Below are positions 15,600 through 35,041 of a stretch of DNA of 64,000 nucleotides, piece after piece (position 1 is the first letter of the stretch; the number at the start of each line of letters is the position of its first letter). Position numbers and translations under genes: made by a program. This DNA comes from a virus: positions 1 to 64,000 of IMG/VR virus record IMGVR_UViG_3300005340_000038; one strand, written 5' to 3'. Below the pieces are notes generated by a model that saw nothing but the letters and a program-made list of their open reading frames with translations, ran no database searches and was not told the DNA's origin.

Positions 15600-18035
15600 C
15601 TACTTCCCTGTCCCTGGACTGCTTGACATACCACCTGATGCCTTACTCACTAGCACCGTTGACGTGTTGCTATATACATATTCACCACCGCTTGTGCGGC
15701 CTCTTGCCTGCCACCGGTGTGGGCCATTCGATACAAACTCGGTATTCCATTCGATTGCATACGGCGGGTCGATATCCTCATCACCGTAATCCGCATCATC
15801 CATCAGAAATGTCACTCCGACAATATCGCCGGTAGCTGTGACCGTGATAGGTATATCCTCAACATCATTAAACATCGCACCGTCATGAGGGGCATCGAGT
15901 GCAACCGATGGCTGCGAAACTACAACTGGCATCGCTGAGACTTCAGACGAGTTCGTACTCTCAGCACCGTTATCAGATGATATAACATAATAGTATGTTA
16001 TATCATTTGATACATCATAATCATTATATAATGTCCCGCCAACTCTAGCAATCTCAGTGTATGGGCCGCCCTGGATCGTGCCCCGCTTGACATGATAACT
16101 CGTCGAGTCGCCTACTTCTGACCATCCAATCGTAATCACGCCGCCACTTGCCGATGCGGTGACGGTTTGAGGTGCTACGGGCAGGTTCGACTGGATCTCT
16201 GGCATCGCGCTAACTTGAGAAGAAACAACACTTTCTGCGCCATTGCGTACAGTGATGATGACGTAGTAATAGGTCGTGCCGTTGGTGACAGAGCTATTGG
16301 TATACTGGTTGATCGAGGGCTGTGCAATCTCGGTGTAAGGGCCACCCGAGACGGTACCGCGCTTGACACGGTAAAATGTTGCGCCTGCGACGCTGTCCCA
16401 CGACAGAGCGACCTGGCCGTTACCTGCCATAGCGACAACATTACTAGGAGCGGGAGGTATCGTCGGCGGGTCACAGGTCGTCGTCACGCTAGTTCCATAG
16501 GTCGAGCCGATGCGATCCGTACTACATGCGCTGAGATGAAGCGCGCCTATCGTCGTGCCGTCGGTAGCCAGAATGCGGGCATTAGAGAGCGTGTCAGGCG
16601 TGAGGTCACCACCTGAGTAGAAACGCGGTCGCCAATCCTCATTGAGTGACCCCGCATCACAGTTGCACAGAGCGCGCCAGGCATCGAGCGTAGAAAAGTC
16701 GGCATCGCTCGCTTGCCCCGATTTGTTCCACGCGCCCACGCGATTGGTTGGCGTGACAGACGGGCCGACCCAGTAGATGTTACGGTCTACGCCTGTCGCA
16801 TCGCCAAATGTACTGCGCGTGTGCACCGCGCCATTGCCGTTGTTGACGCTATTGCCGACCATGCAGAGGTTGTACTGAGCGGTGAGCGGCGTGCCCTGGT
16901 GGAGTAGCATGCATGTGGCGACATCAACGATGGTGTTATGTGTAAAGCTACCGGCGTTGCCTGATGTCTCAAGGCGATAACCAAGCGGCCAGCCATTGAT
17001 GACGTTGTAGCGGTAGGTGTTGCCATAGGCGCGAGAGCCGTTATAGATGGCGGCACGGTCTATTTCGTCGGAGTTACCGAGCACAGTGAATTCATAGCCG
17101 ACTGCATCGACGATAGGCTTATTGCTGATGTAGTTGTATTCAGCAATATTACTCTCTGCGCCGTTTTCGATGTAAATACCATGATTTGACATGCCGCTCA
17201 GCGTGCCAAGCGCCGAGCAGGTTTGCGCGTCGAGCGACTCGATGGCGTTTTGCCGAATGGTGATGCCGGTTGACTCGCCTGAGACGTGGATACCTGTCAC
17301 GGTCGCCTTGCCATCGCTGCCTACCGCACATATGCCGTTCTGAATGCCGTTGTTCTCAATCGTGCCGTCCTTGATACCCGCAACGCGAATGCCCTCTACG
17401 ATATAGCCGTAGATCGTATTGTCCTTGATGACGACATTACGAATCCATTTTTCATCAGGGCAGGTATTCTGCCCGCTATCGCACTGATTCGCGGTGTTAT
17501 CGATGTTGATGACGCGCGATTTCTCATAGCTCACGGGGCCGCTCGATGTGCCCCAATTTGTGAACGTGTTGCCCTGAATGGTGATGTTTCGGCTATTGGT
17601 CGCAGACGTCGTATTGATCATCGAGAGCGCGAAATGGCTTGTGGTTTTGCCCGTACAAGCGAATGTCAGCCCCTGGATGGTGACGTTGTTATTGTTCGCG
17701 AGATTGATTGACCCCTGAAAATTCCCCAGGTTGCCGTTGCATAGGATGGGCACATGACCCGGAGACGGTTCAATCACAATGGGATTGCCGTCGCATCCCG
17801 ATTTCGTGAGAGTCGCTTGCCCGGAATACTCACCCGTCGAGGACATGATACGGATATGGTCACCACATCCTAACGTGCTGAGGTTAAATGCGTTTTGGAT
17901 GCTGCAAAACGGCGAGGATGCAGAGCCGAGGCCGGGGCAGGCGTTGTCTCGGTCCACATAAATATCAGAGGCACGCGCCAGTCCGGTGCAGGCTAGCATC
18001 ACGATACAGAGGGTGATATAGGCATATCGTTGCAT
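15600..18035 (-). CDS. Exported beta-helix protein with FN3 and Ig-like domains
   Basis: 811 residues. Signal peptide MQRYAYITLCIVMLACTGLARAS with cleavage after ARA. Then a right-handed parallel beta-helix (about 25-510; repeated N-ITIQGN, NVVIKDN, GTIENN turns and cysteines), two fibronectin type III domains (about 530-710; PxxVxASxxxGxVTxxWxxV and YYYVI) and a C-terminal Big-type Ig domain (ALDAPHDGAMF). Several Cys pairs suggest oxidation outside the cytoplasm. Ribosome site AGAGGCACAGCG. Substrate unknown; polysaccharide binding or cleavage is plausible. Confidence 0.8.
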   Translation of the reverse strand: MQRYAYITLCIVMLACTGLARASDIYVDRDNACPGLGSASSPFCSIQNAFNLSTLGCGDHIRIMSSTGEYSGQATLTKSGCDGNPIVIEPSPGHVPILCNGNLGNFQGSINLANNNNVTIQGLTFACTGKTTSHFALSMINTTSATNSRNITIQGNTFTNWGTSSGPVSYEKSRVINIDNTANQCDSGQNTCPDEKWIRNVVIKDNTIYGYIVEGIRVAGIKDGTIENNGIQNGICAVGSDGKATVTGIHVSGESTGITIRQNAIESLDAQTCSALGTLSGMSNHGIYIENGAESNIAEYNYISNKPIVDAVGYEFTVLGNSDEIDRAAIYNGSRAYGNTYRYNVINGWPLGYRLETSGNAGSFTHNTIVDVATCMLLHQGTPLTAQYNLCMVGNSVNNGNGAVHTRSTFGDATGVDRNIYWVGPSVTPTNRVGAWNKSGQASDADFSTLDAWRALCNCDAGSLNEDWRPRFYSGGDLTPDTLSNARILATDGTTIGALHLSACSTDRIGSTYGTSVTTTCDPPTIPPAPSNVVAMAGNGQVALSWDSVAGATFYRVKRGTVSGGPYTEIAQPSINQYTNSSVTNGTTYYYVIITVRNGAESVVSSQVSAMPEIQSNLPVAPQTVTASASGGVITIGWSEVGDSTSYHVKRGTIQGGPYTEIARVGGTLYNDYDVSNDITYYYVISSDNGAESTNSSEVSAMPVVVSQPSVALDAPHDGAMFNDVEDIPITVTATGDIVGVTFLMDDADYGDEDIDPPYAIEWNTEFVSNGPHRWQARGRTSGGEYVYSNTSTVLVSKASGGMSSSPGTGK

Positions 18036-18045
18036 CGCTGTGCCT

Positions 18046-21000
18046 CTAGTTGGGGATATGGTTCCAGATAAATTGACTGGTAGTCGCAGTCGGTGATATG
18101 ACCGGCGTGCCCCACCCCGCGATAATGACCTTGTTTACTGTCGGTGCAACGGTCGTATAGTTCACTCTAAAGCCATCGTCTGTGTAGGCGTTAAGCGTCC
18201 CGCTGACGATGACAGTCCCGCTATCGTTGAGTATCTCGTAGAAGCGATCCGCCACACGCGACCGCGTAACGGTAGGGGATACATCGTCTTTTTCAAGGAA
18301 TGATGCGGTGGTATTCGTCCCGGAGGCATCGCTGAACATCAGGCTATACGCACCCGCATTGCTATTGTCGATCACGTTCGCCGTGGTCATCGATGCGCCA
18401 ATGCCCCGGATGGCTAGGGGCTTAAAGCTGAACCCGCCATGATTGGAAAGACCTGTCGTCGTTGGCGTATCAATGATTTGTATCTCAGGGGTGGATGTCG
18501 GTGCCATGTCAAAGGCGAGGAAATAGAGCGAGTGGTCCTGGCTCACGACATTAGACCGCACAGAGAACCCCTGCGAGGTAAACGACTCGACTGAGGCTCT
18601 CAGGATATAGCTATAACACCCCGATGTCGGCACGGTCCAGGCATTACTAGTATCGATAACCCCATAGATGTCTGTGGGGTTAGAGGCCAGCGTAGACCTG
18701 ACGCCATAGGCTGATTGTGTAACGTTGGCTCCGTCATTCGCTGCGAACCCGAGCGATTGCCGGTAGTTCGTTTGTGACAGTGGCCCCAGCGTGCTTTGCA
18801 GCGATGCGCTCGCGGCGATGAGGAAGTTGGCTTCAAAGCCCACGTTGTTGACGAGGGTCGTGCCGCCGGTCGTCGTATTCATGATCAAGCCACCAGCGAA
18901 TGTAGCTTTGATGTCAGTGCCGCCATAGAAATCGACGATCATTTGATACGGCGCGGCTGCGGCTTGCGACCAACTAAGCTCAATGCCGTCTGTCACGTAT
19001 CTCGACACAGCCGCAATGCCCTGCGTCGTAGCATCAACGGCGGCATTCTCCATGCGGATGATGGCATTGTCGCCAGAGGCGCGGCGTGTAGCAACAGTGG
19101 CACTGGCGTCTTTGCTCGCTGCCCCGATGTACCACTGGTGCCCCTGGTTGTCAGCACATCCATACGATATGCGGAACGGAGCTACTGTAGAATTGGTGGA
19201 CGTAGCCGACGATACCGTGATACATACGGCTGATGGCGTACCTATACCGGGGATAGTAATCGACTGCGTACCCACCACGGTAGATGCGGATTGCCGTTTA
19301 TGCTGCACGACCAGAGGCGATGGAGGTGCAACAACGGGCTGTGCCTCAATCGCGCCGATGTCGCATGCGCCGCCGGACGGCTTGGGACGATATCCACCGG
19401 TAAAATCCGTGGAGTAGCCCGTAACGCACGTACCCGCGTCACGCGCTGGGCTGAGCGCACCCAGGCCGAAGTTGCCGCTCGAAGGGCTAAGCCAGAGCGG
19501 GTTAGCCGTCAGGTTATGGTCTTGCGTAATGCCAGAGCCAGTAATGGCCCCGCTGCTGTTTCCGTACATGATGGTATTAGACACAGTAGTAGACGTGACG
19601 CCAGAGCCGACGAATATGCCCCACTGACTATTGTTGCCGATGGAGTTGTAGTAGAGTTGTTGCGTGCTCACGCCTGAATCAACGAGGTTGACACCGGATA
19701 ATGTATTGGCATAGATGAGATTGTTATAGAAAATGTTGTTCGAGCCCTCGTCGATGAGAATACCATTTTGCCCGTTATTACTAATCCGGTTGCGGAAATA
19801 AACGCCGTTGCTGGGTGATGATGTGGCCTCATTGAACAGATAGAGGCCGTTTTGGGTATTGGATTGAATCGTGTTGTCAAAAATCGTGTTATTGACACCA
19901 CTTACGCCTATACCCGTGCGATTGTGATGGATATAGAGGCTCGATAGTGTATTGTCGCTAGACCCTGCCCGCAGATGAACGCCGCCACCTAGAGCTGCGT
20001 TGGCAACCTCAAAATTCTCCAAGATGAGATGGTCTGCTGAACTACCGGTCGTGCCTTCATACCCCTCGGCCACGACATTATCACCCGTTACGTGAGCGCC
20101 ATCGAACAGCAGATAGCCGCCGCTGCCGCTCACGCGCACATAGATCGAGTTGTCCGTGATCGTCAGAACATGCAACCCCGAGTTGGGGCGCACGATAACA
20201 TTGGCGTTGTCTGCTACCAGAAGCGAGTAAATACCTGAGTCGGTGGCATCGTTACCAAATTTGCTAGCAATCGTGAGATTTTCGGCATACGTACCAGAAT
20301 TGATAATGCATTTGTCGCCTGGAGATGCGAGGGCATTGATGCAATGCTGGATCGTAAGGAAAGGGGTTCCCACATCGCCATTATTACTATCGCTACTGCC
20401 CGTTTTGGCAACATAAAAGGTGTGGATGGTTGGTCCGCCGCCGCCTCCACCGCCACCACCCCCACCTCCTGTAGAGCCTCGCTCATAGGCACCTGCGTCA
20501 TACTTGGAGCCGACAGGGCGTGCACCGCCTGTAATATCAGTAGTGATGCCACCGACCTGATTGTAGGCATCAACCGCCGCATTAGTCCCAGACTTGAGGG
20601 AAAAGTCGTTGCCTGCTGCGTTGTTGAACATTGCTGATGAGCCTGTGATATTCCCTGATACACAGCTCCCACTTTGGCAGATATTGTTTTGAACAAGGTC
20701 CGACAAAGTCGTGTTCTTGTCGCATGCTGCTATACCAGCGCAGCCGTTCGGGTTAGCGAAACCTTCAGAGTTGTTATAGCACGTATTATGGTAAGCGCGC
20801 GATGTATCATCATGCAGAGATAGACACCACGAAGTATTTCCAGCTATGACGTTATTATATGCCGTTACGCCCCTGCCAATAGAGAGCGCGTCGCCTCTGA
20901 CGATGCACCCGTTAGGGTCTGTGCACCCATAACACTTATCGGGGTGCGTGACCTTGCTAGTTAAAATGAGATTGTTGCGGATAATGCCATTCGCTAATCC

Positions 21001-21912
21001 GCCAGGCCCATTCACCCCATCATCGCGGCCATTAGAGAAAGCTCCTAAATCATCATTCATCGGGTTGTCGTGGATATAATTGCCATCGACAATAAAATCG
21101 TGGGCACGTTCCTTGATGTCAATCGCCTCTTTGCGTGTACCCTTAATCTCATTGCGGAGAATCTGGAAATTATAGCTCCCCATCTTTGATTCAGTAGAGT
21201 CAGAGATGTAGATACCCTCGCCCGACCCACCATCTGGGCAGTCAGGAACCTCACCACTATCCTGAATCAGATTGTCCGAAATTTCAAAGTCGTGGGGCTC
21301 AGCCCCTGAAACTGTCCCGCTATCGTCGCTATTGGCCCTATCAACTTTAATGCCATTCCAGTCATTCTTTTCGATCCAATTCCATCTAAAGATAAAATGG
21401 TCAGCCCCATTGCGGAGACGAATGCGGAACAATCTTTTGAAATGAATGTGCTCAACAATGAACCAATCTCGATTGTCCCAGTTTGGGTCTAATTTGCCTT
21501 GATATGTGCAGCAAAAATCCCACTGAATAATCGGCATTGCACCGGAACCAAATGACCCAAATATCGTATAGTTGCCAGATGTGCCAGAGGGCATAATAGT
21601 GAACTTGGGGTCTGAGTTGGTCCAAACAGACCCGCGCTCAAAGAGCATGCAATCGCCAGGTCCCCACTTAGTCCGCATTTTAGTGAACGTACTACATTTC
21701 TGAGATGCGCTATCGCAAGAATTATTATCACTCGCACCCGATAGCGTCGAAAAATACCACTTATCGCCATGGCACTGAGATAAATCCGTATTTTGCCCAT
21801 TGTCGGCCCAGGCGCTGAATGGTGGAGCAGCATGAGTTTTAATGGCACAAATGCAGAGCGCGAGTATAGCGAGAAAGATAAACTGTGAGATGACGACAAT
21901 GCGGCGCGGCAT
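18046..21912 (-). CDS. Exported double beta-helix protein with poly-glycine hinge
   Basis: 1288 residues. Signal peptide to about residue 28 (ending KTHA|APPF). First beta-helix about 35-478, closing with GGARPVGSKYDAGAYE; then twelve glycines (482-493); a second beta-helix about 497-865 opening with TFYVAKTGSSDSNNGD and closing with GACDIGAIEAQ; then a beta-rich ~420-residue C-terminal part. R-x-G...DIGAxE endings are typical of choice-of-anchor/beta-helix surface proteins. First helix is Cys-rich. Stop lies 10 bases before the next gene. Confidence 0.8.
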   Translation of the reverse strand: MPRRIVVISQFIFLAILALCICAIKTHAAPPFSAWADNGQNTDLSQCHGDKWYFSTLSGASDNNSCDSASQKCSTFTKMRTKWGPGDCMLFERGSVWTNSDPKFTIMPSGTSGNYTIFGSFGSGAMPIIQWDFCCTYQGKLDPNWDNRDWFIVEHIHFKRLFRIRLRNGADHFIFRWNWIEKNDWNGIKVDRANSDDSGTVSGAEPHDFEISDNLIQDSGEVPDCPDGGSGEGIYISDSTESKMGSYNFQILRNEIKGTRKEAIDIKERAHDFIVDGNYIHDNPMNDDLGAFSNGRDDGVNGPGGLANGIIRNNLILTSKVTHPDKCYGCTDPNGCIVRGDALSIGRGVTAYNNVIAGNTSWCLSLHDDTSRAYHNTCYNNSEGFANPNGCAGIAACDKNTTLSDLVQNNICQSGSCVSGNITGSSAMFNNAAGNDFSLKSGTNAAVDAYNQVGGITTDITGGARPVGSKYDAGAYERGSTGGGGGGGGGGGGPTIHTFYVAKTGSSDSNNGDVGTPFLTIQHCINALASPGDKCIINSGTYAENLTIASKFGNDATDSGIYSLLVADNANVIVRPNSGLHVLTITDNSIYVRVSGSGGYLLFDGAHVTGDNVVAEGYEGTTGSSADHLILENFEVANAALGGGVHLRAGSSDNTLSSLYIHHNRTGIGVSGVNNTIFDNTIQSNTQNGLYLFNEATSSPSNGVYFRNRISNNGQNGILIDEGSNNIFYNNLIYANTLSGVNLVDSGVSTQQLYYNSIGNNSQWGIFVGSGVTSTTVSNTIMYGNSSGAITGSGITQDHNLTANPLWLSPSSGNFGLGALSPARDAGTCVTGYSTDFTGGYRPKPSGGACDIGAIEAQPVVAPPSPLVVQHKRQSASTVVGTQSITIPGIGTPSAVCITVSSATSTNSTVAPFRISYGCADNQGHQWYIGAASKDASATVATRRASGDNAIIRMENAAVDATTQGIAAVSRYVTDGIELSWSQAAAAPYQMIVDFYGGTDIKATFAGGLIMNTTTGGTTLVNNVGFEANFLIAASASLQSTLGPLSQTNYRQSLGFAANDGANVTQSAYGVRSTLASNPTDIYGVIDTSNAWTVPTSGCYSYILRASVESFTSQGFSVRSNVVSQDHSLYFLAFDMAPTSTPEIQIIDTPTTTGLSNHGGFSFKPLAIRGIGASMTTANVIDNSNAGAYSLMFSDASGTNTTASFLEKDDVSPTVTRSRVADRFYEILNDSGTVIVSGTLNAYTDDGFRVNYTTVAPTVNKVIIAGWGTPVISPTATTSQFIWNHIPN

Positions 21913-23027
21913 TACTGGTCACTCCACGAGTCATGAAGCACCTCGGCCACGGCGCTGATAAGCTGGACATGAGAGGTATCTGCTGTGGTACCCGAGCCCT
22001 GCACCGCGCGGACGTAGAGCATGTCCCCCTTAGCGCACGGGCCATTGGGTAGAAACGCGGCAGTTGTGAACTTAAAATGCTGGTTCTGGCTCACGGGAAA
22101 GGAGACAAAACTGACTGTGATAGTCGGAGCCGCAGCCCACAGCGAATTGTATACATCGCCTGACCCTCGGCACTGCGCTGCGATATCCCAAACCATTGTC
22201 GTCGATGTGAGTGCGATATCCGATTTAGCATGTATCGTAATGGTCATGGGCTGATTGGGCGCAATCGATTGACGGAGCGGCGAATTGAAATGGAAATGTG
22301 AATTGATCGACGTTGGGCATGTCACAATGATCGACTCAGGGCCTCCCGAAGCCAGCGCAATCTCAGACCGCGCGCATGCAGAACTCGCGATGTACCATGA
22401 CCCCGCTGGGAATATATAGGGGTGATACTCACGCGCGCCGAGGAATAGCGTGGTTTGGCCTGTGGAGGTCGTTGTGCGAAGCGGTGCCCCTGCACCGAGA
22501 ATGTTCCCAACCTGGCCATTAGGTATGTTGAGGTTAAATCCCCCATCTCGACCCCCGGTGATGCTACTAATCGTGCAACCATTCGTCGGATCAAACCAAA
22601 ATCGGCACTCATTCTCTTCGTTTGGGCCGATAGCAAAATAATTGGCAGAGTCTACCGCAGTTGATATGCGGGGATTGACGAGGAAATTCTCTTCCAACCC
22701 TTGAGCCGGTGCACCTCCACTACCCCCACCACTCTCTAATACCCATGCGCTATTGATGCATAGATAGCTCTGCGCCACACCCGCATTGTTGACCTTGCGA
22801 GACGTACCCGTCGTGCACGCACCGGTAGGCACAGCGCTATACATCGGCGGGACTTTGCTGGAGCCGTCTGTGTTCCACACGTCGCCGCCCTGAACATTCG
22901 CGCCCTGCTTAGGCGGGGTAAACGTCTGAGCGTAAGCCGTATTAGGGAATCGTAGTACGACCGCCAAACTCAATAATATCAGTACCCGTATGCCAGAGCA
23001 TAAGGCTGGAGAATCGCGTAATTTCAA
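21912..23027 (-). CDS. Exported protein, unknown, tail-fibre-like features
   Basis: 371 residues with signal peptide MKLRDSPALCSGIRVLILLSLAVVLRFPNTAYAQ (cleavage AYA|Q; given in full it exceeds 20, key residues are LILLSLAVVL then AYA). Mature part begins TFTPPKQGANVQGGDVWNTDGSS, then a Gly/Ser stretch and beta-rich segments. It overlaps the upstream gene by 86 bases, which is long; a start nearer LILL is possible. Stop/start overlap with the 1288-residue gene by one base. Confidence 0.65.
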   Translation of the reverse strand: MKLRDSPALCSGIRVLILLSLAVVLRFPNTAYAQTFTPPKQGANVQGGDVWNTDGSSKVPPMYSAVPTGACTTGTSRKVNNAGVAQSYLCINSAWVLESGGGSGGAPAQGLEENFLVNPRISTAVDSANYFAIGPNEENECRFWFDPTNGCTISSITGGRDGGFNLNIPNGQVGNILGAGAPLRTTTSTGQTTLFLGAREYHPYIFPAGSWYIASSACARSEIALASGGPESIIVTCPTSINSHFHFNSPLRQSIAPNQPMTITIHAKSDIALTSTTMVWDIAAQCRGSGDVYNSLWAAAPTITVSFVSFPVSQNQHFKFTTAAFLPNGPCAKGDMLYVRAVQGSGTTADTSHVQLISAVAEVLHDSWSDQ

Positions 23028-23367: not shown

Positions 23368-23377
23368 AGATATCTAT

Positions 23378-23704: not shown

Positions 23705-23720
23705 AGTATCTCAGTTCAGG

Positions 23721-24158: not shown

Positions 24159-24171
24159 GTCATATCTCCTA

Positions 24172-24236: not shown

Positions 24237-24310
24237 CAAAGGACAAGGCGATCTCGATACCAGAGTTATTTAGTTTTGCACCGACACAAATGTAATAGTC
24301 TTACCTCCTG

Positions 24311-26752
24311 CTACGCATCGGGTTCAATTAGCTCAATGTTAGTAACGAGGACGGTCGGTGTAAATATAATGCTATCGATCAGTACCCCTCCATATTGGGC
24401 AGGAGGTGTTAGCCCAATAAACATCGTAGGAGGTATAACCCTGATCCTGGCAAACCCCATCGCAACAATTTCATCTATCGTCATGAATGGCGAGCTGACA
24501 CCAATCACGGCAGGCGATAGGGGCACCTGCTCGATGAGATTGAGTGCCTGAGTAGGCGCGCCTATGGAGATGTTGACAGGCGTGAGGTAGATGGGCCGAT
24601 GATACGTCATTTCAGGGACGATAAGAGATATCGTCGCAGGCGACAAGTCTACTGTCTCGGCAATAGAGACAGATGGCGCTGACAGGCTAATCAGTACAGG
24701 CGTGAGGAAAAACTCGAATAGTTCCTCGAATGACAGCGGCGGGACAGCCAGAGATATAACGATAGGTGATAGGCCAATTGTGCAGAGGACAGTAGTGGGT
24801 GGCGCGATGAGACTGATTGGAACGGGAGACAAATCAATCGTCTCATTGAGCCCAAAATTGCGCGCGTAAACGCCAATAGTTACCGGGTCACACTCGATAT
24901 ATTCGTCAAGGCTCACCATACTAGGAACAGAGAGGGAAACAGAGGCGGGCGCTAGGCTCATAGTCTCAGAAACAGTTACTGTCGGGCTCGTCACACTGAT
25001 CGGAATAGGAGATATGTCAATCATCTCATAGCGATCTGTGCTCGGGATAGTCAGCGATAGCATGACAGGCGTTAAATGAAACAGGAGTCCGGCCAGCATG
25101 CCAAGCGTCGGAATATTGACGGTTATGACCGCGGGGGTGAGATCAATCGCTTCAGACACATGAGTAGTCGGCAAGATCAGGTCAATAGAGACAGGTACGA
25201 GATCGATTGTTTCATAGTAGTCTGTTGCAGGCACGCCTAGAGAGATAACCGGGGGTGTTAGGTAAAATACCTCACTAAACGGCATGGCGGGAACAGACAG
25301 GGATATCGTAGTCGTATTGAGTGAGATCGTCTCGTTAACATGCGTTGCTGGCGAAGACAGATTGATCCTGACCGGCGTCATCGTAAACGCTTGCAGAGGC
25401 CTGAACCCAGGAACGCTGACATATATGGACGCTGGCCCCAGATTCATGGACTCGAAAAATGTCGTCTGCAACGGAGAGACAGAAAGATTAGCGGGGCCAA
25501 ACCCGAGAGACTCGGAAATGCTCGTAGACGGGGCCGATAACGAGATGACAACTGGGTTCAGTTGGAACACAGAGGATGTGAGCAGCCCAGGGACATTGAC
25601 AATAATATTGACAGGCGTGAGGGGTATCGCCTCGCTGATGCCTACGGCTGGGCTGTCAACTGTGATTACTGCCGGAGCCATCAGCACTTGTTCAGCTCGC
25701 CCAAGCGTCGGGACAGTCAAATTAATGTCTGCGGGGCTTAGCGTGATGGACTCAGAAATGCTCACAGCGGGCGGCGTTAGCGAGATTACAACAGGCGTCA
25801 AATTGATGCTGACAGGCTGCTCAGGCTCGTCAAACCCGATGTCCCAGGTTGCAAACGTCTCGCCGTCTACGTCGTCATCGAAGGGGTAAATCGAGTCGCC
25901 GCTGAGATTGGTACCATACCCTAACGCGCCGGTATCGGAAAGACTTAGATGGTAGTTTTTATTGCTGACATCGACGAACGTGAAAGTCTGGCTGTGCCTA
26001 CTATGCGCGCCTGGAGCTGTTGTATCGCCCGAGGAATTGTAGTCGCCATTCGTTCCGGTAACTAGGAATCCACCATTCGTATTGCTAACCCCGATACAGT
26101 TATAGCAATACATCGACGACGTATTTGACGCAGCAAACCCATAGTCGCCATTGCTAGCTGAGACGCTGTTGTAGATATAGGCAACATGCCCTGAACTGGC
26201 GTGGAACCCGCGCTTCTCATTATTGTGGGCTAGGCAATCTACGAAAACATAAGTCGCGGTGCCCGCACATGAGAACCCGTGGTTTTTTTCCGTCCCAGAA
26301 TTAACGCAATTATTGGCAATACAACCAATAACCCTATTACCAGTCCCTGCACATCTATAGCCATGGCGCTCGTTTGTCGAGTTATTTGTAAGCTTAACAT
26401 CCAGGTCTTCAGCAGCGGCATAGCTCTCATTGCCGAGGTTGACAACATCGGAGTCGCCCGTGTAGTAGAGCGCGAATCCGGTGCCATAGACGCCAGTGTG
26501 CTTATGGCCTACGGCTGCTCGAATTTTGCGGAAGTGGGTTGCGTCTGTGGTTCCACCGATAGGGAGCCAGCGCTGATTATAGCTTGCTGAATCTGTATAC
26601 CCCTCAATGGTATACGAGACATTATTGCTAACCATGTTGACATCGGTATCAGACTCGTAGACAGCGAGGTCTGTGTAGTCGCGACCGTGGCCACTCGCGC
26701 CAAATGTGTTGACGACCTCATTGACGCCATTTTTACGGGCTGATACCATCAC
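24311..26752 (-). CDS. Beta-helix protein with 20-residue repeat shaft
   Basis: 813 residues, no signal peptide. Residues 1-~300 form a beta-helix-like head (NNSTNERHGYRCAGTGNRVIG, CLAHNNEKRGF). Residues ~316-777 hold about 23 copies of a 20-residue unit, roughly xxLTPVxISLSxPxxxxSEx; the key proline falls at 320, 340, 360, 380 ... 540 without slip, later with three 1-2 residue inserts. A fibrous beta-solenoid or beta-prism shaft is likely. Gene order among fibre-like genes suggests a virion fibre; the function is unproven. Confidence 0.75.
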   Translation of the reverse strand: MMVSARKNGVNEVVNTFGASGHGRDYTDLAVYESDTDVNMVSNNVSYTIEGYTDSASYNQRWLPIGGTTDATHFRKIRAAVGHKHTGVYGTGFALYYTGDSDVVNLGNESYAAAEDLDVKLTNNSTNERHGYRCAGTGNRVIGCIANNCVNSGTEKNHGFSCAGTATYVFVDCLAHNNEKRGFHASSGHVAYIYNSVSASNGDYGFAASNTSSMYCYNCIGVSNTNGGFLVTGTNGDYNSSGDTTAPGAHSRHSQTFTFVDVSNKNYHLSLSDTGALGYGTNLSGDSIYPFDDDVDGETFATWDIGFDEPEQPVSINLTPVVISLTPPAVSISESITLSPADINLTVPTLGRAEQVLMAPAVITVDSPAVGISEAIPLTPVNIIVNVPGLLTSSVFQLNPVVISLSAPSTSISESLGFGPANLSVSPLQTTFFESMNLGPASIYVSVPGFRPLQAFTMTPVRINLSSPATHVNETISLNTTTISLSVPAMPFSEVFYLTPPVISLGVPATDYYETIDLVPVSIDLILPTTHVSEAIDLTPAVITVNIPTLGMLAGLLFHLTPVMLSLTIPSTDRYEMIDISPIPISVTSPTVTVSETMSLAPASVSLSVPSMVSLDEYIECDPVTIGVYARNFGLNETIDLSPVPISLIAPPTTVLCTIGLSPIVISLAVPPLSFEELFEFFLTPVLISLSAPSVSIAETVDLSPATISLIVPEMTYHRPIYLTPVNISIGAPTQALNLIEQVPLSPAVIGVSSPFMTIDEIVAMGFARIRVIPPTMFIGLTPPAQYGGVLIDSIIFTPTVLVTNIELIEPDA
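24422..25807 (-). repeat. 60-bp-period coding repeat (20-residue units)
   Basis: About 23 units, conserved in protein pattern but diverged in DNA: hydrophobic-Ser/Thr-Pro, then alternating I/V-x-L/V, then Pro, then an acidic Glu near the end. Exact spacing over the first 12 units argues for structural selection on unit length rather than recent duplication. Confidence 0.85.
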
Positions 26753-26758
26753 ATCATC

Positions 26759-27193: not shown

Positions 27194-27196
27194 AGG

Positions 27197-27391: not shown

Positions 27392-27398
27392 ATAATCT

Positions 27399-27968
27399 CT
27401 AATCGCTCGATGACACATCGTTTTGCAATGCGTCAATTGCGTTCTGGAGCGTCAAACTGTCGGGCAGATTCGGGTTGATATGAGAGTATCCATTCACTGC
27501 GGTTTTGATTGCCGCTAAACTTCCAGCCGCAGCTAAGTCAGTCTTATATTGCTCCCACTGTGTAATCATCGCATTCGTTTTGCCATTCGTCGCATTAAAC
27601 AAACTGATTAGGCGCTTGAGTAACGCTTTAAACACTTTGCGCCACCTCGGATGGTTATTGATAGAAGTCAGAGCCTGTGTTGCGTCAAGAGCATCGCGCC
27701 AGGCGGCCTCTGCTGGGGCAAAGGCGTCAATCTCGCCCTGCGTCGCGTTGCGGATGGTGTTGCTGCCAGGTAGGGCAATCTTGGCAAACCCGAGTACGCG
27801 CATCGGACCAAGTACGCCGTCTACGACCTCGGTAACATCGGGCCCATCGGTTAGTGTTGGGTCTACTAAAACACCGAAGTAGGTAGGGTCGGACTCAGAG
27901 AACGATTGCCCCGCCACTGATATTTTGAGGACTTCGCCGCCATCGATGCGATAGAGTGCCGTGGGCAT
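27399..27968 (-). CDS. Hypothetical, fibre-associated-type protein
   Basis: 189 residues from MPTALYRIDGGEVL. The GGAAGGAG site lies inside the stop region of the previous gene, fixing this start; the open frame extends upstream but is not coding there. An N-terminal beta part (GGEVLKISVAGQSF) and a helical C-terminal (FKALLKRLISLFNATNGK, LQNAIDALQND) resemble tail-fibre connector or assembly proteins. Confidence 0.55.
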   Translation of the reverse strand: MPTALYRIDGGEVLKISVAGQSFSESDPTYFGVLVDPTLTDGPDVTEVVDGVLGPMRVLGFAKIALPGSNTIRNATQGEIDAFAPAEAAWRDALDATQALTSINNHPRWRKVFKALLKRLISLFNATNGKTNAMITQWEQYKTDLAAAGSLAAIKTAVNGYSHINPNLPDSLTLQNAIDALQNDVSSSD

Positions 27969-27969
27969 G

Positions 27970-28203
27970 CTAACTCCTTCCACAAACGCGGATACGGTCG
28001 CCGACTTGGCATTCGTTGGGGAACGGGCCGTCATGGTCTGTCGATCCCGCGAGATGAATGCGGTAAACCGATGACCCTGCATAGGTTTCGATGATTTTAG
28101 GAAGCCCCGCATTGGGGCCATCAAACTGCCCATCTGTATCTTTGCTCCCATCACAGCCTGTAAAATTAATAGTAAAATTGCCCAAATAGAGAGGTGTATA
28201 CAT
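27970..28203 (-). CDS. Small hypothetical protein
   Basis: 77 residues, MYTPLYLGNFTINF..., with an SSVYRIHLAG segment and a DRIRVCG end. Ends in a TAG that overlaps the ribosome site of the next gene. Beta-rich; function unknown. Confidence 0.5.
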   Translation of the reverse strand: MYTPLYLGNFTINFTGCDGSKDTDGQFDGPNAGLPKIIETYAGSSVYRIHLAGSTDHDGPFPNECQVGDRIRVCGRS

Positions 28204-28214
28204 ATATTATCCTG

Positions 28215-31200
28215 CTATTGCTCAAAGACACCGATATCAGGAGCCGAGCCCAAATAGATATATGAGATGCCCTCGCCCTGTGTCCATGTGATGGCAGGGC
28301 TTACTGTAATAGTCCTTGTCGATATATCGATATTGGTAATCCTGGCCGTTTTTTTCCCGGTCTGCGTCATGATGAGGTCGCCCTTGTACCCCGGTATACC
28401 ATACCCATCAGAAAAACACCGCGCATCGCTGACCACAAACGTTGATGTCGGGCTTGAGGCTGTCGCAGATGTAATGGTCGCCAAAAACACTCCTGCATTG
28501 AGCTGAGCAGAGGACGTCAGGTGAAAGTCGCTATCGTTGACAGAGGCAAACGTTACGGCTGAGGTGATATTATTTGACCAGTTATTGGGGAGGCTGGACT
28601 GCAAAGAAGAAACAGAAAGCACAGTACCGAGATTGGTTGGGTTTGGATCAGGGTCGCCGCCATACCTAACATCATCTATGATGTCATTCCCGCGCCAGAC
28701 ATTCTCGGAGCGTCCGTTGATTTCCTGACCTCCAAACCAGATATCGCTCTTCCCCAACGAATTGTATATATTGTTCAGAAAAATATTATTCAATACATCA
28801 AGATAAGCGGGGGAAGAACTGTTCCTATACATACCATTCTGGTCAGTATTATAAATAACATTATGTGCCCAGCACTGTTCCTTAGTGCCTTGGTCAAAAG
28901 AAATTTGGCCATTATTATTGAGTGAATTTCGGCGAATGATATTACCGAGTGCTAAAACATACTGAGTAGAAGATTGCGCACCAGATGCATTACCTGTTCC
29001 AGTCTGAATGCCTGACTGATCCCCAGCGGCTCTAGAGGCATTGGTCCCATAGAGCCAGCCATTTTGCGTGGCAATAATTCCTGAATCGAGAATTATATTA
29101 TCTTCCAAGACATCAAATTGAGATGAATACAGAGCCACATTTGAATGCCACGTATTGCGAATTTTATTTCGTCTGTAAATATTATGATGAGTTGGGTTGC
29201 CTACGCTAGAAGCTGCGTTAAGAGCGACATGCCTGCAATTGCCAATATCATTATCCTCAACTAAATTGTGATCAGCGCCACCAAGTGGGCGAAAACAATC
29301 CTGGTACCCCTTGCAATTATTTGTGCAGGATTGTGTTGTGATGTCGTTAGCAACCGACTGATTACCACGGATCAAATTATAATCACCGCTCCAGCGTATA
29401 GCGTTGCCGCCACCAGTGATATTTGTTTGGGTGAGCACGTTATCGCGTATGATATTGCGATTGCCTGAATCAATCAGCACTGCCGTTCCACTCACATTAT
29501 TGATATGCATGCCCGCAATGACGATATATGATTTTCCAGTCAGGTCTGCCCCATTGCCGCTTGTTCCGGCCCCTCCGCTGCCATCTCTCAGGATGATGGC
29601 GGTCTCTCCAGGATACGCTAAGTAGGAAATATACGCGCTGGCATTGCCGTTGTTGGTGGGTTGAATTTGCTGATAATAAGTACCGCCTCTAATCCACACC
29701 GTCTGCCCGGCTTGGAGTGCGCCATTCGCCTTGCTGATCGTTTTCCAGGGCTGGCTGATCGTTCCGGGATTGCTATCACTGGCTGATGCCGATGTCGAAA
29801 CGTAATACTGAGTGCCCGTGTTGACGACGACAGTCGTAGAATCGCTAAAGGGTACACCCGTATCTCCCTGGCAGGTAATGATGTAATTGGTTGTACTAGT
29901 TGGAGATACCGCAAACGATCCGTTCGTTGACTTAGCCCCTGTCCATGCACCCGCCGTGGTCGCCGCACAAGAACTAGCGTACATCGATGACCATGTCAGG
30001 GTTGTACTTTGGCCTGTTGTAATAACGCTAGGATTAGATCCAATCGTAGCAACGGCATTAACCGTGCCGCCACCACTTGGCGATGACTGGGTGACAGTAG
30101 AAGTACGGAAGGAGGGCGTTGTAGATATATTCCCAGATGTGTCATATGTCCACATGCGATAGCAGTAAGATGTATTCGGGGTCAGCCCAGAATCTGTAAA
30201 TGTAGTTAGCGAGGTATCGCCTATAAATATCCACGGAGAACAGGAATCTGTCGACCCACTGCAAACACCCAAACAATGCTGAACATGATAATGATCGACT
30301 GCCACATTATCGGTGGCTGCGCTCCAATTGAGATCGATGGCTGTAGAGGGAGACGTAGAGTTTGGCGCTGCCGATATGGTCGTGACAATACCAGGGGGCT
30401 GCGTGTCGGGGGCAATAATATTATTTATCGTAAGCGAAACGCCGGCAGAGGTCGCAGTGAGTCCAGAGCCATTATACGCCTTAGCCGTCAAGAGGGCGGT
30501 GCCATTCGCCCTTTGGGTAGTATTGAATGATAGAGCCCAGGGAGCTATTGTCACCTCGCCAAGCAGGGCAGTCCCCCAATAATATTCAACCGCGACAATG
30601 CCAGAGACGGTGTCCGCTGGATTAGACGTGAGATTAATGGTACCGCTATACGTTCCGGCGCTAGGCGATGTGATGGATACCGTAGGGGCCGAATTGTCTA
30701 CAGTTATGGCTACAGGTTCGGCAAAAACACTATTGCCGACATTATCGAGCAATTTGATCTTCGCCTGGAGTACCGTACCATCTGCCTGAGTGAGTGGATA
30801 GGTGCCCTCAAACGGGCTTGTACTATCTATTATGCCAACCGCACTATCGTTTATATAGAGTTGGGCTCCCGACACGCCAGAATTCTCATCAGACATCTCA
30901 ACACTCCATGGTAGTGTGTTGGAGACATATTGGTCAGATTCTGGCGAGGAGCTATCAATAGATGGCGGAGTGACATCTATCATGACCATTTGTGCTGATG
31001 AGTCTGTATAATGATTATCTACATCTAGGCAACGGACCTTCACCGTCACGCTGGCATCAGAGGTATAGGGTGCGGTCCAAGTACCAGAAAATGGGGGTAT
31101 AGTATCAGGCGTTCCCACGGGAGACCCATCAGCCAAGAGTTGCATGGATTGGATCGGCACAGATGAATCACACGTCGCATTCCAGTCCACAGTACCGCCT

Positions 31201-31403
31201 AGATAGTAGGGGTTTGACCCCACCTTGTCCGGTAAAGTCAGAACCACGTTGCCCGGCGTAGGTACGATCGTCATGACCGACGGGTAGCTTATAGCAGGCA
31301 TTCCACCCGGGAAACTGGGAGTCGCAGCATTAGCCCTGGCGTAATAATCTACGCAGCACAAAATGAATAATGCGACAGCCAACGTGGCGCTGAACACTCT
31401 CAT
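28215..31403 (-). CDS. Exported Ig/FN3/beta-helix protein
   Basis: 1062 residues. Signal peptide MRVFSATLAVALFILC to ANA|A (about residue 27). Domains: two or three Big-type Ig domains (about 90-330; VRCLDVDNHYTDSSAQMVMIDV, SITSPSAGTYSG), one FN3 domain (about 335-440), a PKD/Ig-like linker, then a long right-handed beta-helix (about 545-1062; TQYYVSTSASASDSNPGT to the closing APDIGVFEQ). Cys-rich. Similar in plan to the other three helix proteins; substrate unknown. Confidence 0.8.
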   Translation of the reverse strand: MRVFSATLAVALFILCCVDYYARANAATPSFPGGMPAISYPSVMTIVPTPGNVVLTLPDKVGSNPYYLGGTVDWNATCDSSVPIQSMQLLADGSPVGTPDTIPPFSGTWTAPYTSDASVTVKVRCLDVDNHYTDSSAQMVMIDVTPPSIDSSSPESDQYVSNTLPWSVEMSDENSGVSGAQLYINDSAVGIIDSTSPFEGTYPLTQADGTVLQAKIKLLDNVGNSVFAEPVAITVDNSAPTVSITSPSAGTYSGTINLTSNPADTVSGIVAVEYYWGTALLGEVTIAPWALSFNTTQRANGTALLTAKAYNGSGLTATSAGVSLTINNIIAPDTQPPGIVTTISAAPNSTSPSTAIDLNWSAATDNVAVDHYHVQHCLGVCSGSTDSCSPWIFIGDTSLTTFTDSGLTPNTSYCYRMWTYDTSGNISTTPSFRTSTVTQSSPSGGGTVNAVATIGSNPSVITTGQSTTLTWSSMYASSCAATTAGAWTGAKSTNGSFAVSPTSTTNYIITCQGDTGVPFSDSTTVVVNTGTQYYVSTSASASDSNPGTISQPWKTISKANGALQAGQTVWIRGGTYYQQIQPTNNGNASAYISYLAYPGETAIILRDGSGGAGTSGNGADLTGKSYIVIAGMHINNVSGTAVLIDSGNRNIIRDNVLTQTNITGGGNAIRWSGDYNLIRGNQSVANDITTQSCTNNCKGYQDCFRPLGGADHNLVEDNDIGNCRHVALNAASSVGNPTHHNIYRRNKIRNTWHSNVALYSSQFDVLEDNIILDSGIIATQNGWLYGTNASRAAGDQSGIQTGTGNASGAQSSTQYVLALGNIIRRNSLNNNGQISFDQGTKEQCWAHNVIYNTDQNGMYRNSSSPAYLDVLNNIFLNNIYNSLGKSDIWFGGQEINGRSENVWRGNDIIDDVRYGGDPDPNPTNLGTVLSVSSLQSSLPNNWSNNITSAVTFASVNDSDFHLTSSAQLNAGVFLATITSATASSPTSTFVVSDARCFSDGYGIPGYKGDLIMTQTGKKTARITNIDISTRTITVSPAITWTQGEGISYIYLGSAPDIGVFEQ

Positions 31404-31420
31404 ACAGATCTCATGTGAGG

Positions 31421-31750
31421 TTAGAATCCGTGCTGCCAGACGTAATCCCAGAATTTTTCCTTGAGATCGCTAGAAAACTTATGCACCCAGTCGTCGGCGC
31501 TTTTATCGATATCGTCTGAGCTTTCAATATCGTGGTCTGTAATCTCGTTGGTCACCGGAAAATGAAAGGTTTGTTGAGGATTGGAACGATATACCATCTC
31601 AGCCCGCACCTCGGTTTTGATGGGGCCGCGTTCATAAAGGACCGATGTCACTACCGCATTACCGCGAAGCAATTGTAGGTTCAGGTTATACATGAAGTCC
31701 TGTACCTTGCCGCTTGGCCACTCGGGTTCCATCTCATCAAACGGTCGCAT
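31421..31750 (-). CDS. Hypothetical protein
   Basis: 109 residues with an acidic start (MRPFDEMEPEWPSGK) and a C-terminal DDIDKSADDWVHKFSSDLKEKFW. Lies between dTMP kinase and the exported 1062-residue gene. No motif recognised. Confidence 0.5.
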   Translation of the reverse strand: MRPFDEMEPEWPSGKVQDFMYNLNLQLLRGNAVVTSVLYERGPIKTEVRAEMVYRSNPQQTFHFPVTNEITDHDIESSDDIDKSADDWVHKFSSDLKEKFWDYVWQHGF

Positions 31751-31760
31751 AAACTACCTC

Positions 31761-32351
31761 TTAACCTAAATTCTCAAGGCCAAGACTCAGCACGGCCTGT
31801 GCCCACACTTGGCGTTCTACTTCGAGTTCATTCTCAGATGCGTCGATCTCGACCCACCCCGGCATTGTGCTCATCGAGCGGTATATCTCGCGGACTCTTT
31901 CGAGGTATCCAGCAGAGCGCGTAAATTCAGAATGACGGTGCCTATCCTGCCTTTTGATGGATAGGTCAGGCTCCAAATCGAGATAAATCAGAAGGTCAGG
32001 ACGCAGCGCCCATGCCTGGTGGAGCTGATAAATCACTTGAATATCGACCCCCTTCGCACCCTGATAGGCCATCGTCGAGTAGTAGTAACGGTCCTGTATG
32101 GCAATGTCGCACGGGGTATAGTCCTGTATCCCTGCCTGCGCCGCTCGGTCGGCCATATACAGCCCCGTCTCCACCCACGGGTCGAGGCCCTCAGCATATT
32201 TAGCGAGGCGACCGAAGTAACTCCAGCTCGGCTCTTTGTGCAACACGACACGTAGCCCAGACTGACGCAACCGCTGCATGAGGCGCCTGGCCTGCGAGGT
32301 CTTGCCGGAGCCGTTGAGCCCCTCAAATACGATGAGCCGTTGATTGGTCAT
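31761..32351 (-). CDS. tmk: Thymidylate kinase
   Basis: 196 residues from MTNQRLIVFEGLNGSGKT. Walker A GLNGSGKT, the DRYYYST (DR-Y) motif near 100, a LID with RQDRHRHSEF, and the YLDLEPDLSIKRQ segment mark a dTMP kinase, which phosphorylates dTMP to dTDP for phage DNA synthesis (and for any modified thymidine pool). I start at the ATG that follows the GTAGGGCT site rather than the upstream frame, which overlaps a membrane gene. Confidence 0.85.
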   Translation of the reverse strand: MTNQRLIVFEGLNGSGKTSQARRLMQRLRQSGLRVVLHKEPSWSYFGRLAKYAEGLDPWVETGLYMADRAAQAGIQDYTPCDIAIQDRYYYSTMAYQGAKGVDIQVIYQLHQAWALRPDLLIYLDLEPDLSIKRQDRHRHSEFTRSAGYLERVREIYRSMSTMPGWVEIDASENELEVERQVWAQAVLSLGLENLG

Positions 32352-32355
32352 AGCC

Positions 32356-32553
32356 CTACTCTGATGCCCTAGTGCCAGTCCCGGGATGCGAATAGAATCC
32401 CACAGCCGTCGCACCTGCCAAGACAGCGCCCACAAGGAGCCGTGCCCATTCAGGGGTATCTGCTGGCATATTGGCAGAGAAGAACCCCAGCACGGCTAGA
32501 ACAAACCCGATCAGCGTCAACACCCACGATGGAATGCCTGTTTGCTCTGCCAT
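32356..32553 (-). CDS. Small membrane protein, holin candidate
   Basis: 65 residues with two helices: WVLTLIGFVLAVLGFF (about 9-25) and LLVGAVLAGATAVGFY (about 38-53), short termini. The pattern and size fit small two-helix holins. Paired with the gene at 32553-32810 through a one-base overlap. Confidence 0.55.
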   Translation of the reverse strand: MAEQTGIPSWVLTLIGFVLAVLGFFSANMPADTPEWARLLVGAVLAGATAVGFYSHPGTGTRASE

Positions 32554-32810
32554 TACGCCACCATGCTCGCATTTTTAATCGCTACCGTATTGTCAATAAC
32601 CGTGCTGGCCACAGCCATCAACTTGCCACGGTCTACGGCGGCGAATTGAGGGTCACTTTGTTGGCACGTATCAATGCAAGACTCAACCGCATCCATCACT
32701 AGCTTCTTTTTCTCGGGGCCTGCGCCTTGCTGGTCAATAATGTCGACTACGCTTTTGACAGACGAAACTAACGCAGGGAGAATTTGCAGAATCAACAGAA
32801 AAACACCCAT
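32553..32810 (-). CDS. Small phage protein with N-terminal hydrophobic helix
   Basis: 85 residues: MGVFLLILQILPALVSSVKSVVDII, a polar linker, then KLVMDAVESCIDTCQQ and a helical end. This type (LQILP-A-SSVK then GPEKKKLVMDAV) is a recurring small phage family next to lysis genes. Follows the 32.85 kb terminator. Confidence 0.5.
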   Translation of the reverse strand: MGVFLLILQILPALVSSVKSVVDIIDQQGAGPEKKKLVMDAVESCIDTCQQSDPQFAAVDRGKLMAVASTVIDNTVAIKNASMVA

Positions 32811-32830
32811 TTGTATGCTGCCTCACAAAA

Positions 32831-32889
32831 TAAAAAAGGCCGGAGCACCCCTAATCTGGGGTATTGCTCCGGCCTGAGTGGGCTAGCCC
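32831..32889 (-). terminator. Rho-independent terminator, copy 2
   Basis: On the - strand GGCCGGAGCA pairs with TGCTCCGGCC (32838-32847 with 32865-32874), followed by TTTTTTATTTT. The loop holds a second CCCC..GGGG stem, and GGGCTAGCCC (palindrome) precedes it. Ends the pectate-lyase-like gene. Homologous in layout to the 24.2 kb terminator. Confidence 0.85.
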
Positions 32890-32995
32890 TGCATGGGAGG
32901 GCCGCTCTAAGTACCGCGTATTTTGTTTTCTGATGCGTCGAGAGATGTCAACTAATTATGACACATTGCGCTTTAAAATGCATCAAATTGCGAAC

Positions 32996-35041
32996 TTATG
33001 GCGATACAGTTGCAAGCGCCTGAATGTCCGAATTCGATAGCGACGTGTTATATATCCGCACATCATCAATGAGGCCATCGAATTGCCCCACTGTCGTCGA
33101 GACATTCGCGCCGATAATCAGCGAGTTGGTATTCGTAATCGCCTGCGCGGTCGTCGTATTCGATGCCACGCTAACCCCGTTGACAAATATCGCATGGCCG
33201 CTTGAGCTGGCTCTGCACGCGATGTGATACCACTGGTTGGGATTGAAATTGCTTGAGGCATAAGTCAGCGTGGCATTCCAAGCCCGGCCCATCCCGCACC
33301 GAAGACTATTCTGGTAGAACACGAGGAAATAGCTATTGCTGAAATTCCAATCGCCCTTCATCAGAATCGTGTCGCCAAAGCTGGTATTGGTGTCGAGGGT
33401 ATCCATCTTCACCCATGCCGAGATCGTCATAGCTGTCGAGGGATTCAGCGCGGAGGCATGAGGAATCTGGGCATAGTCATGTGACCCATCGAGCGATATC
33501 GCCTGGCCAATCTTGCCCGTAGTGAATAGCGGGCATCCAAGCAAATCTCCGTTGTAGTTGCCGAATGCGTCATCTGCCGAATTGTCAAACTCGTATTTAG
33601 CGACAGGGGTAGGCACTGAAACCGTAGGCACGGTATCGCCAGCTAATTCATTGAGATAGTTCTCTAAATTGCTGTAGCCGTTCGAAGCTATTTTGGGGCC
33701 ATCAAGGTCATTAACAGGGCTATTAGGGTTGAGACCATGCTGTGTTTCCCACGTATCCGGGATGCCGTCATTGTCAGAGTCAGCAGGAGCCGCAGCACTT
33801 GCGTAGGGAGGGAACTGTACACAGCTCTCAATCGTTATCGGCGGCGGGTTTCCCGTGCCACAGATGCCACCCGTGTTATTATTGACGTACCCGAGGACTT
33901 TATTATCAATGGGATCGCGCTTAGGCACCGTTGCGCCAGCCCGAGCAATGACTTGGGCTTTAGAGGCTACAGCAGTGGTCTCAGTAGGAATAACCGGACC
34001 ACCAGATACACGGTTCGTCGACTGCATCGTGTAGGCCTGTCCCCCGATATCTACCATGGCAAACTCTGACCCCGTCGATGCATCCGGGCGCCTAACCGTA
34101 TGCACATTCCCCTTGATGAAATAATCCGATGCTGCCTGGTCCTCTGGCTTGCATTCCCAACTGCTAGCATATCCACAGCCGACGGTCAGGATATTGGATG
34201 CGCCCCGGTTGAGCCAGTTATATGCAATATCAGCGTGGATAGCATCGTATTCTGCCCAGGCGTAGATGCACTGCGACTCACACATATAGACCACGTTGTT
34301 GATAATCTGCGTGTAATCTGCGCCTACCGTCGGTGTACGCTTGGCGATATTGCTAAACAAATTGTGCAAATACGAGGTGTGTATATCCGACGTCTGCCCA
34401 CCTCCAACCCAACTACCACCTGCCGACCCCGCACCGCCTGCTGAAACCTGTTTGAGCGTCTCCGAGATAAATGACCACTGGAGCGTACAGTTGATATTGG
34501 CTCCGTCGGTTAGCGACGAGCAAGACCAAAAGTCGTCTGTGCTCCAGCCACCCGAGATATGATCGAAGATGACATAGTTTATCCCTGGCCCCTGCCCCGC
34601 AGAAACCCCGTTGGTATTGTCCGTGATGGGAGACGTTCGTCCAGGCCCCCGTATGCGACAATGCCTCACAATGACATTATTTGTGGCCTGAAACCCGAGC
34701 GCCCCGCTGACTGGCGGTCCCTTGATCATAATTCCATCGCCCGGTGCTGTCTGGCATGCTAGCGTCACATTGCTCTTTATGCTACCAATCTGCGAGCTTA
34801 GCGTTATCGTCCCGCCAACTGTAAAGATAATCGTGCGCGTACCCGTCTGCTGTAAACAACTCCGCAAGCTACCCGTACCGCTGTCATTGAGGTTCGTCAC
34901 TTTACAGACAACACCACCACGACCCCCAGATGCAAACCGGCCAAATCCCTCAGCCGTAGGGAACGCGAGTTGCTGTGCTTGAGCCGGAACCCATACTGCC
35001 AGGAGACATATCGCCAATATTAAGCCAGAAAAATACCGCAT
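32996..35041 (-). CDS. Exported pectate-lyase-like protein with LamG-like domain
   Basis: 681 residues. Signal peptide MRYFSGLILAICLLAVW to AQA|Q. N-terminal FPTAEGFGRFASGGRGG, KVTNLNDSGTGSLR, TIIFTVGGTI and NVIVRHCRIRGPG match polysaccharide lyase family 1/pectate-lyase beta-helices. A calcium-type DSDNDGIPDTWETQHGLNP (thrombospondin-3-like) linker follows at about 425, then a LamG-like lectin domain to the end. Likely degrades or binds a pectin-like or other host glycan outside the cell. Starts directly at the upstream stop (TAGATG). Confidence 0.85.
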   Translation of the reverse strand: MRYFSGLILAICLLAVWVPAQAQQLAFPTAEGFGRFASGGRGGVVCKVTNLNDSGTGSLRSCLQQTGTRTIIFTVGGTITLSSQIGSIKSNVTLACQTAPGDGIMIKGPPVSGALGFQATNNVIVRHCRIRGPGRTSPITDNTNGVSAGQGPGINYVIFDHISGGWSTDDFWSCSSLTDGANINCTLQWSFISETLKQVSAGGAGSAGGSWVGGGQTSDIHTSYLHNLFSNIAKRTPTVGADYTQIINNVVYMCESQCIYAWAEYDAIHADIAYNWLNRGASNILTVGCGYASSWECKPEDQAASDYFIKGNVHTVRRPDASTGSEFAMVDIGGQAYTMQSTNRVSGGPVIPTETTAVASKAQVIARAGATVPKRDPIDNKVLGYVNNNTGGICGTGNPPPITIESCVQFPPYASAAAPADSDNDGIPDTWETQHGLNPNSPVNDLDGPKIASNGYSNLENYLNELAGDTVPTVSVPTPVAKYEFDNSADDAFGNYNGDLLGCPLFTTGKIGQAISLDGSHDYAQIPHASALNPSTAMTISAWVKMDTLDTNTSFGDTILMKGDWNFSNSYFLVFYQNSLRCGMGRAWNATLTYASSNFNPNQWYHIACRASSSGHAIFVNGVSVASNTTTAQAITNTNSLIIGANVSTTVGQFDGLIDDVRIYNTSLSNSDIQALATVSP

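Follow-up and report, generated by a model that had tools for sequence, protein, structure and literature searches.

Five genes of a soil-type tailed phage appear, on balance, to encode late-expressed, Sec-exported, glycan-active and adhesive proteins of the tailspike and tail-fibre class. This reading is supported by their N-terminal signals, a PL1 fold with conserved active-site residues, precedents among the virion proteins of other phages, the recurrence of such genes in other viral loci and a protein in which homologues of two of the five are fused. The features seen in the sequence itself are Sec-type N-termini, a lyase fold, beta-helix, Ig, FN3 and lectin modules, and a place in a co-directional late block. 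The initial annotation had proposed that a set of glycan-active or adhesive proteins is secreted and, as predicted export, this is well supported.

The late gene block and its setting

The stretch analysed (the window, 64 kb) is the first part of a 76,361-base IMG/VR virus record, and four further IMG/VR contigs hold near-identical copies (99.9–100%) of the same phage. The five open reading frames named in the initial annotation, designated here by their lower coordinates (15600, 18046, 21912, 28215 and 32996), were confirmed. Transcription on the − strand runs from the block (35.7–15.6 kb) through a ParB-like gene, a TET-associated glycosyltransferase, the small and large terminase subunits, the portal and the head protease/capsid to the head–tail connectors. 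The principal genes are as follows.

32996..35041, − strand: 681-aa PL1 pectate-lyase-type protein with a signal and, at its C-terminus, TSP3-like and LamG (ConA-like lectin) regions (phrog_27797 pectate lyase, E 2e-39; Laminin_G_3, E 5e-27)
28215..31403, − strand: 1062-aa signal-bearing protein with Ig-like Big_7, FN3-like region and C-terminal beta-helix (Big_7, E 5e-14; score 14.1)
24311..26752, − strand: 813-aa virion-like repeat protein inside the block, without signal, an internal contrast (score −2.2; weak Beta_helix match, E 0.07)
21912..23027, − strand: 371-aa signal-bearing Cys-rich protein, TTG start, no family match (score 12.1)
18046..21912, − strand: 1288-aa signal-bearing protein with beta-helix regions and a C-terminal domain (Pfam Beta_helix, E 6e-16, and NosD, E 7e-9; score 15.4)
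15600..18035, − strand: 811-aa protein with a weaker signal, weak beta-helix, FN3-like region and C-terminal Big_7 (Big_7, E 3e-8; Fn3 3mpc, E 5e-14; beta-helix, E 3e-5)
11608..13200, − strand: large terminase, downstream of the block (phrog_2, E 5e-34)
9188..11623, − strand: portal/head-morphogenesis fusion, downstream (phrog_2662, E 9e-73; phrog_3517, E 4e-29)
4905..6515, − strand: head maturation protease/major head protein, downstream (phrog_617, E 2e-18; phrog_80, E 8e-11)

The five genes had been assigned to the same operon as the packaging and head genes; the common strand and the tight spacing agree with this, and the support is limited to these two features. Lysogenic conversion, in which a prophage or phage-plasmid would express the set and thereby change the lysogen's surface or its adhesion, had also been suggested. 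We consider it improbable and the suggestion unsupported: the genes are part of the late block and share the direction of the late genes, promoters inside the block are not in excess over shuffles, and no tyrosine or serine recombinase (integrase or resolvase) was found in the record, which is incomplete. A cI-like HTH gene (window 59981–60346) and a ParA-like gene with a small partner (L005:3593–4566) speak for conversion and make a temperate or phage-plasmid lifestyle possible, and lambda lom offers the example of an exported gene within a late operon.

Beyond the head–tail connectors, no tail module was seen in the rest of the record. Since the record ends without one, it probably lacks the phage's tail genes, and a conventional spike may therefore be encoded elsewhere, which counts against a spike or fibre role for the exported proteins.

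N-terminal signals and domains of the five proteins

Signal peptides were evaluated with a home-made score in which a von Heijne matrix for prokaryotic cleavage sites was combined with the hydrophobicity of the h-region and the charge of the n-region. Calibration on 40 genes of a 49-kb E. coli K-12 segment gave 9.4–21.9 for secreted, at most 4.7 for cytosolic and −2 to 10.3 for inner-membrane proteins. On this scale the signals initially ascribed to all five genes were recovered, with scores of 15.4 for 18046 (THA/AP, where the slash marks the predicted cleavage site), 14.8 for 32996 (AQA/QQ), 14.1 for 28215 (ARA/NA, or ANA/AT two residues later) and 12.1 for 21912 (AYA/QT), and a borderline 8.8, the weakest of the five, for 15600 (ARA/SD). 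The features of Sec type I signals, namely a positive n-region, a hydrophobic h-region and small residues at −3 and −1, are present in the five, borderline in 15600. By these measures the predicted signals of four proteins are strong, and 15600 probably has one as well.

The remaining 14 window open reading frames of at least 300 aa scored 4.03 or lower, and the strict cut was passed by one of 126 shadow ORFs. Shuffling of residues 2–50 matched the observed score 3–10 times in 2000 for the four strong genes and 93 times in 2000 for 15600. Among the late genes of lambda, used as a control, lom alone passed (13.8), as expected. Lom resembles the five genes in bearing a signal and in being encoded among the tail genes of the late operon; it differs in being a single gene for a small outer-membrane barrel that is not glycan-active. 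The borderline value for 15600 and the home-made score would favour the view that these N-termini are hydrophobic without being functional export signals (chance, wrong starts or membrane anchors). We regard this as very unlikely, as the score separates the five cleanly from all other large genes, the near-identical copies in other contigs retain the signals, and a signal is found on independent families and on a 35–51% identical protein of locus L178, so that it has been kept across deep divergence. The signal peptides and domains are listed below.

34976..35041, − strand: signal peptide of 32996, MRYFSGLILAICLLAVWVPAQA/QQ (score 14.8; N-terminal helix in the model)
33632..34975, − strand: PL1 beta-helix domain of 32996, residues about 23–470, immediately after the signal (fold and alignment)
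33020..33490, − strand: LamG domain of 32996, residues 518–674 (Pfam Laminin_G_3; PDB matches 5hon and 4qvs)
31326..31403, − strand: signal peptide of 28215, MRVFSATLAVALFILCCVDYYARANA/AT (signal score)
22929..23027, − strand: signal peptide of 21912, ...RFPNTAYA/QT (signal score)
21829..21912, − strand: signal peptide of 18046, MPRRIVVISQFIFLAILALCICAIKTHA/AP (signal score)
18127..19290, − strand: C-terminal domain of 18046, residues 875–1262 (26% identity to a signal-less 419-aa protein of locus L196)
17970..18035, − strand: probable signal peptide of 15600, MQRYAYITLCIVMLACTGLARA/SD (score 8.8, borderline)

Two compositional claims of the initial annotation were borne out, with limits. The mature proteins are rich in cysteine (1.86%, against 0.71% for the remaining late genes; p = 5e-7), but early genes reach the same level (1.9%), so that the contrast is valid only against virion-type genes. 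Beta-helix bodies are found in four proteins, by Pfam in 18046, by fold in 32996 and weakly in 28215 (E 1e-5) and 15600, but not in 21912, for which no family match of any kind was obtained. The structure predictions proposed at the outset likewise differed in outcome: 32996 gave a clear PL1 fold, whereas 21912, modelled from its sequence alone, reached a pLDDT of 41, too unreliable for any claim about its fold.

The model of 32996, built from 39 sequences, is nearest to PfPL1 (PDB 9buj; Z 42, 394 residues, rmsd 2.8), and also matches VexL, a periplasmic capsule depolymerase (PDB 6fi2; Z 31), and many pectate lyases (Z 24–31). As modelled, 32996 has the right-handed PL1 beta-helix fold. Residues R235, D160, H161 and Q188 are the same in all 39 aligned sequences and D169 is retained in 36 of 39; in line with PL1 enzymes in general, we take R235 for the catalytic arginine and D160 and D169 for acidic metal-site residues. 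PfPL1 and the secreted bacterial PL1 enzymes share with 32996 the fold, the active-site residues and the signal-to-lyase layout, but they are cellular enzymes, whereas 32996 is encoded in a phage late block and carries LamG in addition. VexL is also an exported PL1-like beta-helix protein acting on surface polysaccharide, but it belongs to a capsule export system and not to a phage.

These likenesses favour a second reading, possible rather than probable, in which the products are free secreted enzymes only, i.e. host-derived CAZymes that are exported while infection proceeds, have capsule, biofilm or plant pectin as their targets and are no part of the virion (an auxiliary-gene or 'virocell' role). 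The order of signal, lyase and lectin in 32996 is that of free bacterial enzymes, a signal is present in 57 of its 75 bacterial relatives, and VexL has a close fold. Because this layout leaves no docking room, 32996 looks more like a free enzyme than a particle part, which counts against the tailspike and tail-fibre reading. Against free enzymes only, the genes sit in a late virion and packaging block here and in other phages, and a lyase is fused to a 28215 scaffold in L178. Among the five proteins, none of which gave a PHROG docking-domain match, 28215, 18046 and 21912 are better candidates for particle parts than 32996.

The fusion is found in two loci, L178 and L180 (3300026075 and 3300023266), where one signal-bearing protein of 1488 aa, encoded just upstream of the terminase, combines homologues of 32996 and 28215. 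Its segments correspond, in order, to residues 50–250 of 28215 (31% identity), residues 20–472 of the 32996 lyase (51%) and residues 249–1062 of 28215 (35%); the lyase domain is thus inserted within the 28215 scaffold and LamG is absent, whereas the phage of the window has two separate genes. This arrangement implies that 32996 and 28215 are functionally linked. The fused L178 gene lies directly upstream of a T7-type tail-fibre gene and the terminase. L178 thus has a conventional fibre without a signal in addition to the exported lyase, so that the latter does not have to be the spike, and this counts against the preferred reading.

Relatives of 18046 occur with a signal in L181 and L195 (in L195 from an internal start) and without one in L196 and in L228, where the gene is near a tail gene. 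The signal-less 419-aa protein of L196 adjoins a signal-less PL1. Signal-less relatives of 18046 and of PL1 thus occur in the late modules of other phages, and the sharing of the 18046 domain with such proteins argues against free enzymes only. The FN3 domains of 15600 are close to those in secreted carbohydrate-active proteins. No match to 21912, 18046, 23721 or 24311 was obtained by tblastn against 50,697 phage records, and single-protein searches of IMG/VR with 32996, 28215, 18046 and 21912 returned either no hit or contigs nearly identical to this phage.

Two further proteins were observed. The 24311 product has a beta-helix-like start followed by a long C-terminal part of many short repeats (like LTPVxISLxxPxxxxSExI), and no database relative was found. 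Outside the window, a transmembrane segment is probable in a 407-aa protein (L005:6951–8174; record 66950–68173, − strand) whose C-terminal part resembles the N-terminal stretch of 18046 (E 4e-11 by blastp); judged from this resemblance, it is a possible sixth, membrane-anchored member of the set.

Signal-bearing genes in other phages

An alignment-based search of IMG/VR for PL1 gave 53 loci. Signals are present on 19 of the 53 viral PL1 genes, often in late modules; in the remainder the protein starts with the lyase domain itself. Runs of at least two signal genes occur at 12 of the 53 PL1 loci versus two of 61 terminase-chosen loci, a comparison that is descriptive and not a test, the first set being PL1-selected and possibly including bacterial contigs. 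Statements on neighbouring genes are accordingly based on L178, L181, L187, L192 and L195, in which recognized phage genes are present. Three signal genes are followed by an endolysin, the terminase and a head–tail adaptor in L187, several by an endolysin in L195 and four by a virion protein in L181, while L192 has a single signal-bearing PL1 downstream of the major head protein. L080 (MT835948, 'Bacteriophage sp.', a faecal clone) was excluded as a phage precedent as it resembles a Bacteroidetes polysaccharide-utilization locus.

Cellulophaga phages were reached by tblastn from 32996. In phi39:1 a homologue of 32996, gp26, has a signal score of 13.5, and gp25, just before it, one of 13.1; both are recorded as virion proteins detected by MS/MS. 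The same is recorded for the structural proteins gp091–094 of phi10:1 (scores 18.5, 10.3, 12.5 and 10.7) and gp08 of phiSM (10.9). The premise of the initial annotation that spikes and fibres lack Sec signals is contradicted by these records, and the assumption that phage spikes never use the host export machinery looks too simple. Among proteins of at least 150 aa in phi39:1, phiSM and phi10:1, signals are found in seven of 36 virion-listed proteins versus two of 55 others (p = 0.03). The virion record of gp26 weighs against free enzymes only. Conversely, the signal-bearing lyases phi10:1 gp095 and phiSM gp09 are absent from the MS-labelled virion proteins, which counts against the tailspike and tail-fibre reading, and gp095, with the same layout as 32996, favours free enzymes.

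The signal-bearing Cellulophaga virion proteins start with the signal and not with a fibre-type adaptor. The lyase-bearing virion protein gp024 of phi13:1, by contrast, has no signal and starts with a fibre-type, adaptor-like N-terminus; one domain family therefore has both kinds of N-terminus. Cellulophaga phages phi39:1 (gp25–gp26), phi10:1 (gp091–gp095) and phiSM (gp08–gp09), together with Nekkels, resemble the phage of the window in having consecutive signal-bearing tail-fibre-like and pectate-lyase genes in a virion module, with a PL1 homologous to 32996. They differ in their marine flavobacterial hosts, in the 200–240 residues ahead of the PL1 domain in the phi39:1 and Nekkels lyases, and in the lack of detected sequence relation to 15600, 18046, 21912 and 28215; for 21912, no significant similarity to the signal-bearing fibres was found.

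The system had been described as possibly new, and this applies to part of it. Signal peptides have been reported on lyases of flavophages Nekkels and Ingeline (Bartlau et al.; PMC8776804) and signal-bearing genes in Porphyromonas phages (Matrishin et al.; PMC10367356), and lambda Lom and phage curli pores (PMC9004378) are also in print. A multi-gene late cassette of signal-bearing genes was not found described in the literature, nor was a paper found concluding that signal-bearing proteins reach virions. The curli pores (CsgG and CsgF) of pelagimyophages and methylophages are likewise phage-encoded exported proteins whose role is unproven, but they form an outer-membrane pore and are not glycan-active beta-helix proteins.

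Proposed route and other genes of the record

According to the tailspike and tail-fibre reading, the five genes would be expressed late, and their products would be exported by Sec, cleaved by signal peptidase and folded in the periplasm, a compartment that allows disulfide formation. Their target would then be the acidic polysaccharide surrounding the host cell, attacked in late infection and during lysis, and progeny would thereby be freed or helped toward new cells. Once outside the cytoplasm, some of the five may become attached to progeny particles; the Cellulophaga records point to such a step for the corresponding proteins. A broader proposal, which we put forward tentatively and think rather doubtful, is that many tailed phages of diderm hosts Sec-export receptor-binding and depolymerase proteins that the particle picks up outside the cytoplasm (in the periplasm, at the cell surface or in the lysate). 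This would constitute a second, unrecognized route of appendage assembly, with signal-bearing and signal-less versions of a family interchanging between phages.

If signal-bearing proteins do join virions, textbook all-cytoplasmic appendage assembly has exceptions in several phage lineages, and signal-peptide screens of phage genomes, usually read as marking host-altering genes, mislabel virion parts. If the proteins stay free, soil and sea phages would release sugar-degrading enzymes to the environment as part of the lytic programme.

Two lines of comparison pointed to no single host phylum: bacterial relatives of the PL1 belong to many phyla (the best, at 39%, in a Verrucomicrobiota MAG), and matches to a sigma-54 activator are similarly scattered. 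The latter (window 54258–55292) is an activator-type AAA+ regulator with a Fis-type HTH (Pfam, E 1e-70), rare in phages, with relatives 42–46% identical on plasmids of many phyla. Three of the four gammaproteobacterial terminase relatives (35–36% identity) were examined, and none of the three has the cassette in the stretches covered. Five distant marine terminase relatives (L015, L027, L064, L065 and L069) have signal-bearing genes resembling curli or CsgG-type proteins, in agreement with the published pelagimyophage curli pores. Finally, the TET-associated glycosyltransferase (Pfam, E 1e-48) and the ParB-like gene adjoin each other (window 13593–14528 and 14532–15599) and have a GC content of 39–40% versus 51% for the window; the pair are likely to be DNA hypermodification genes acquired together.
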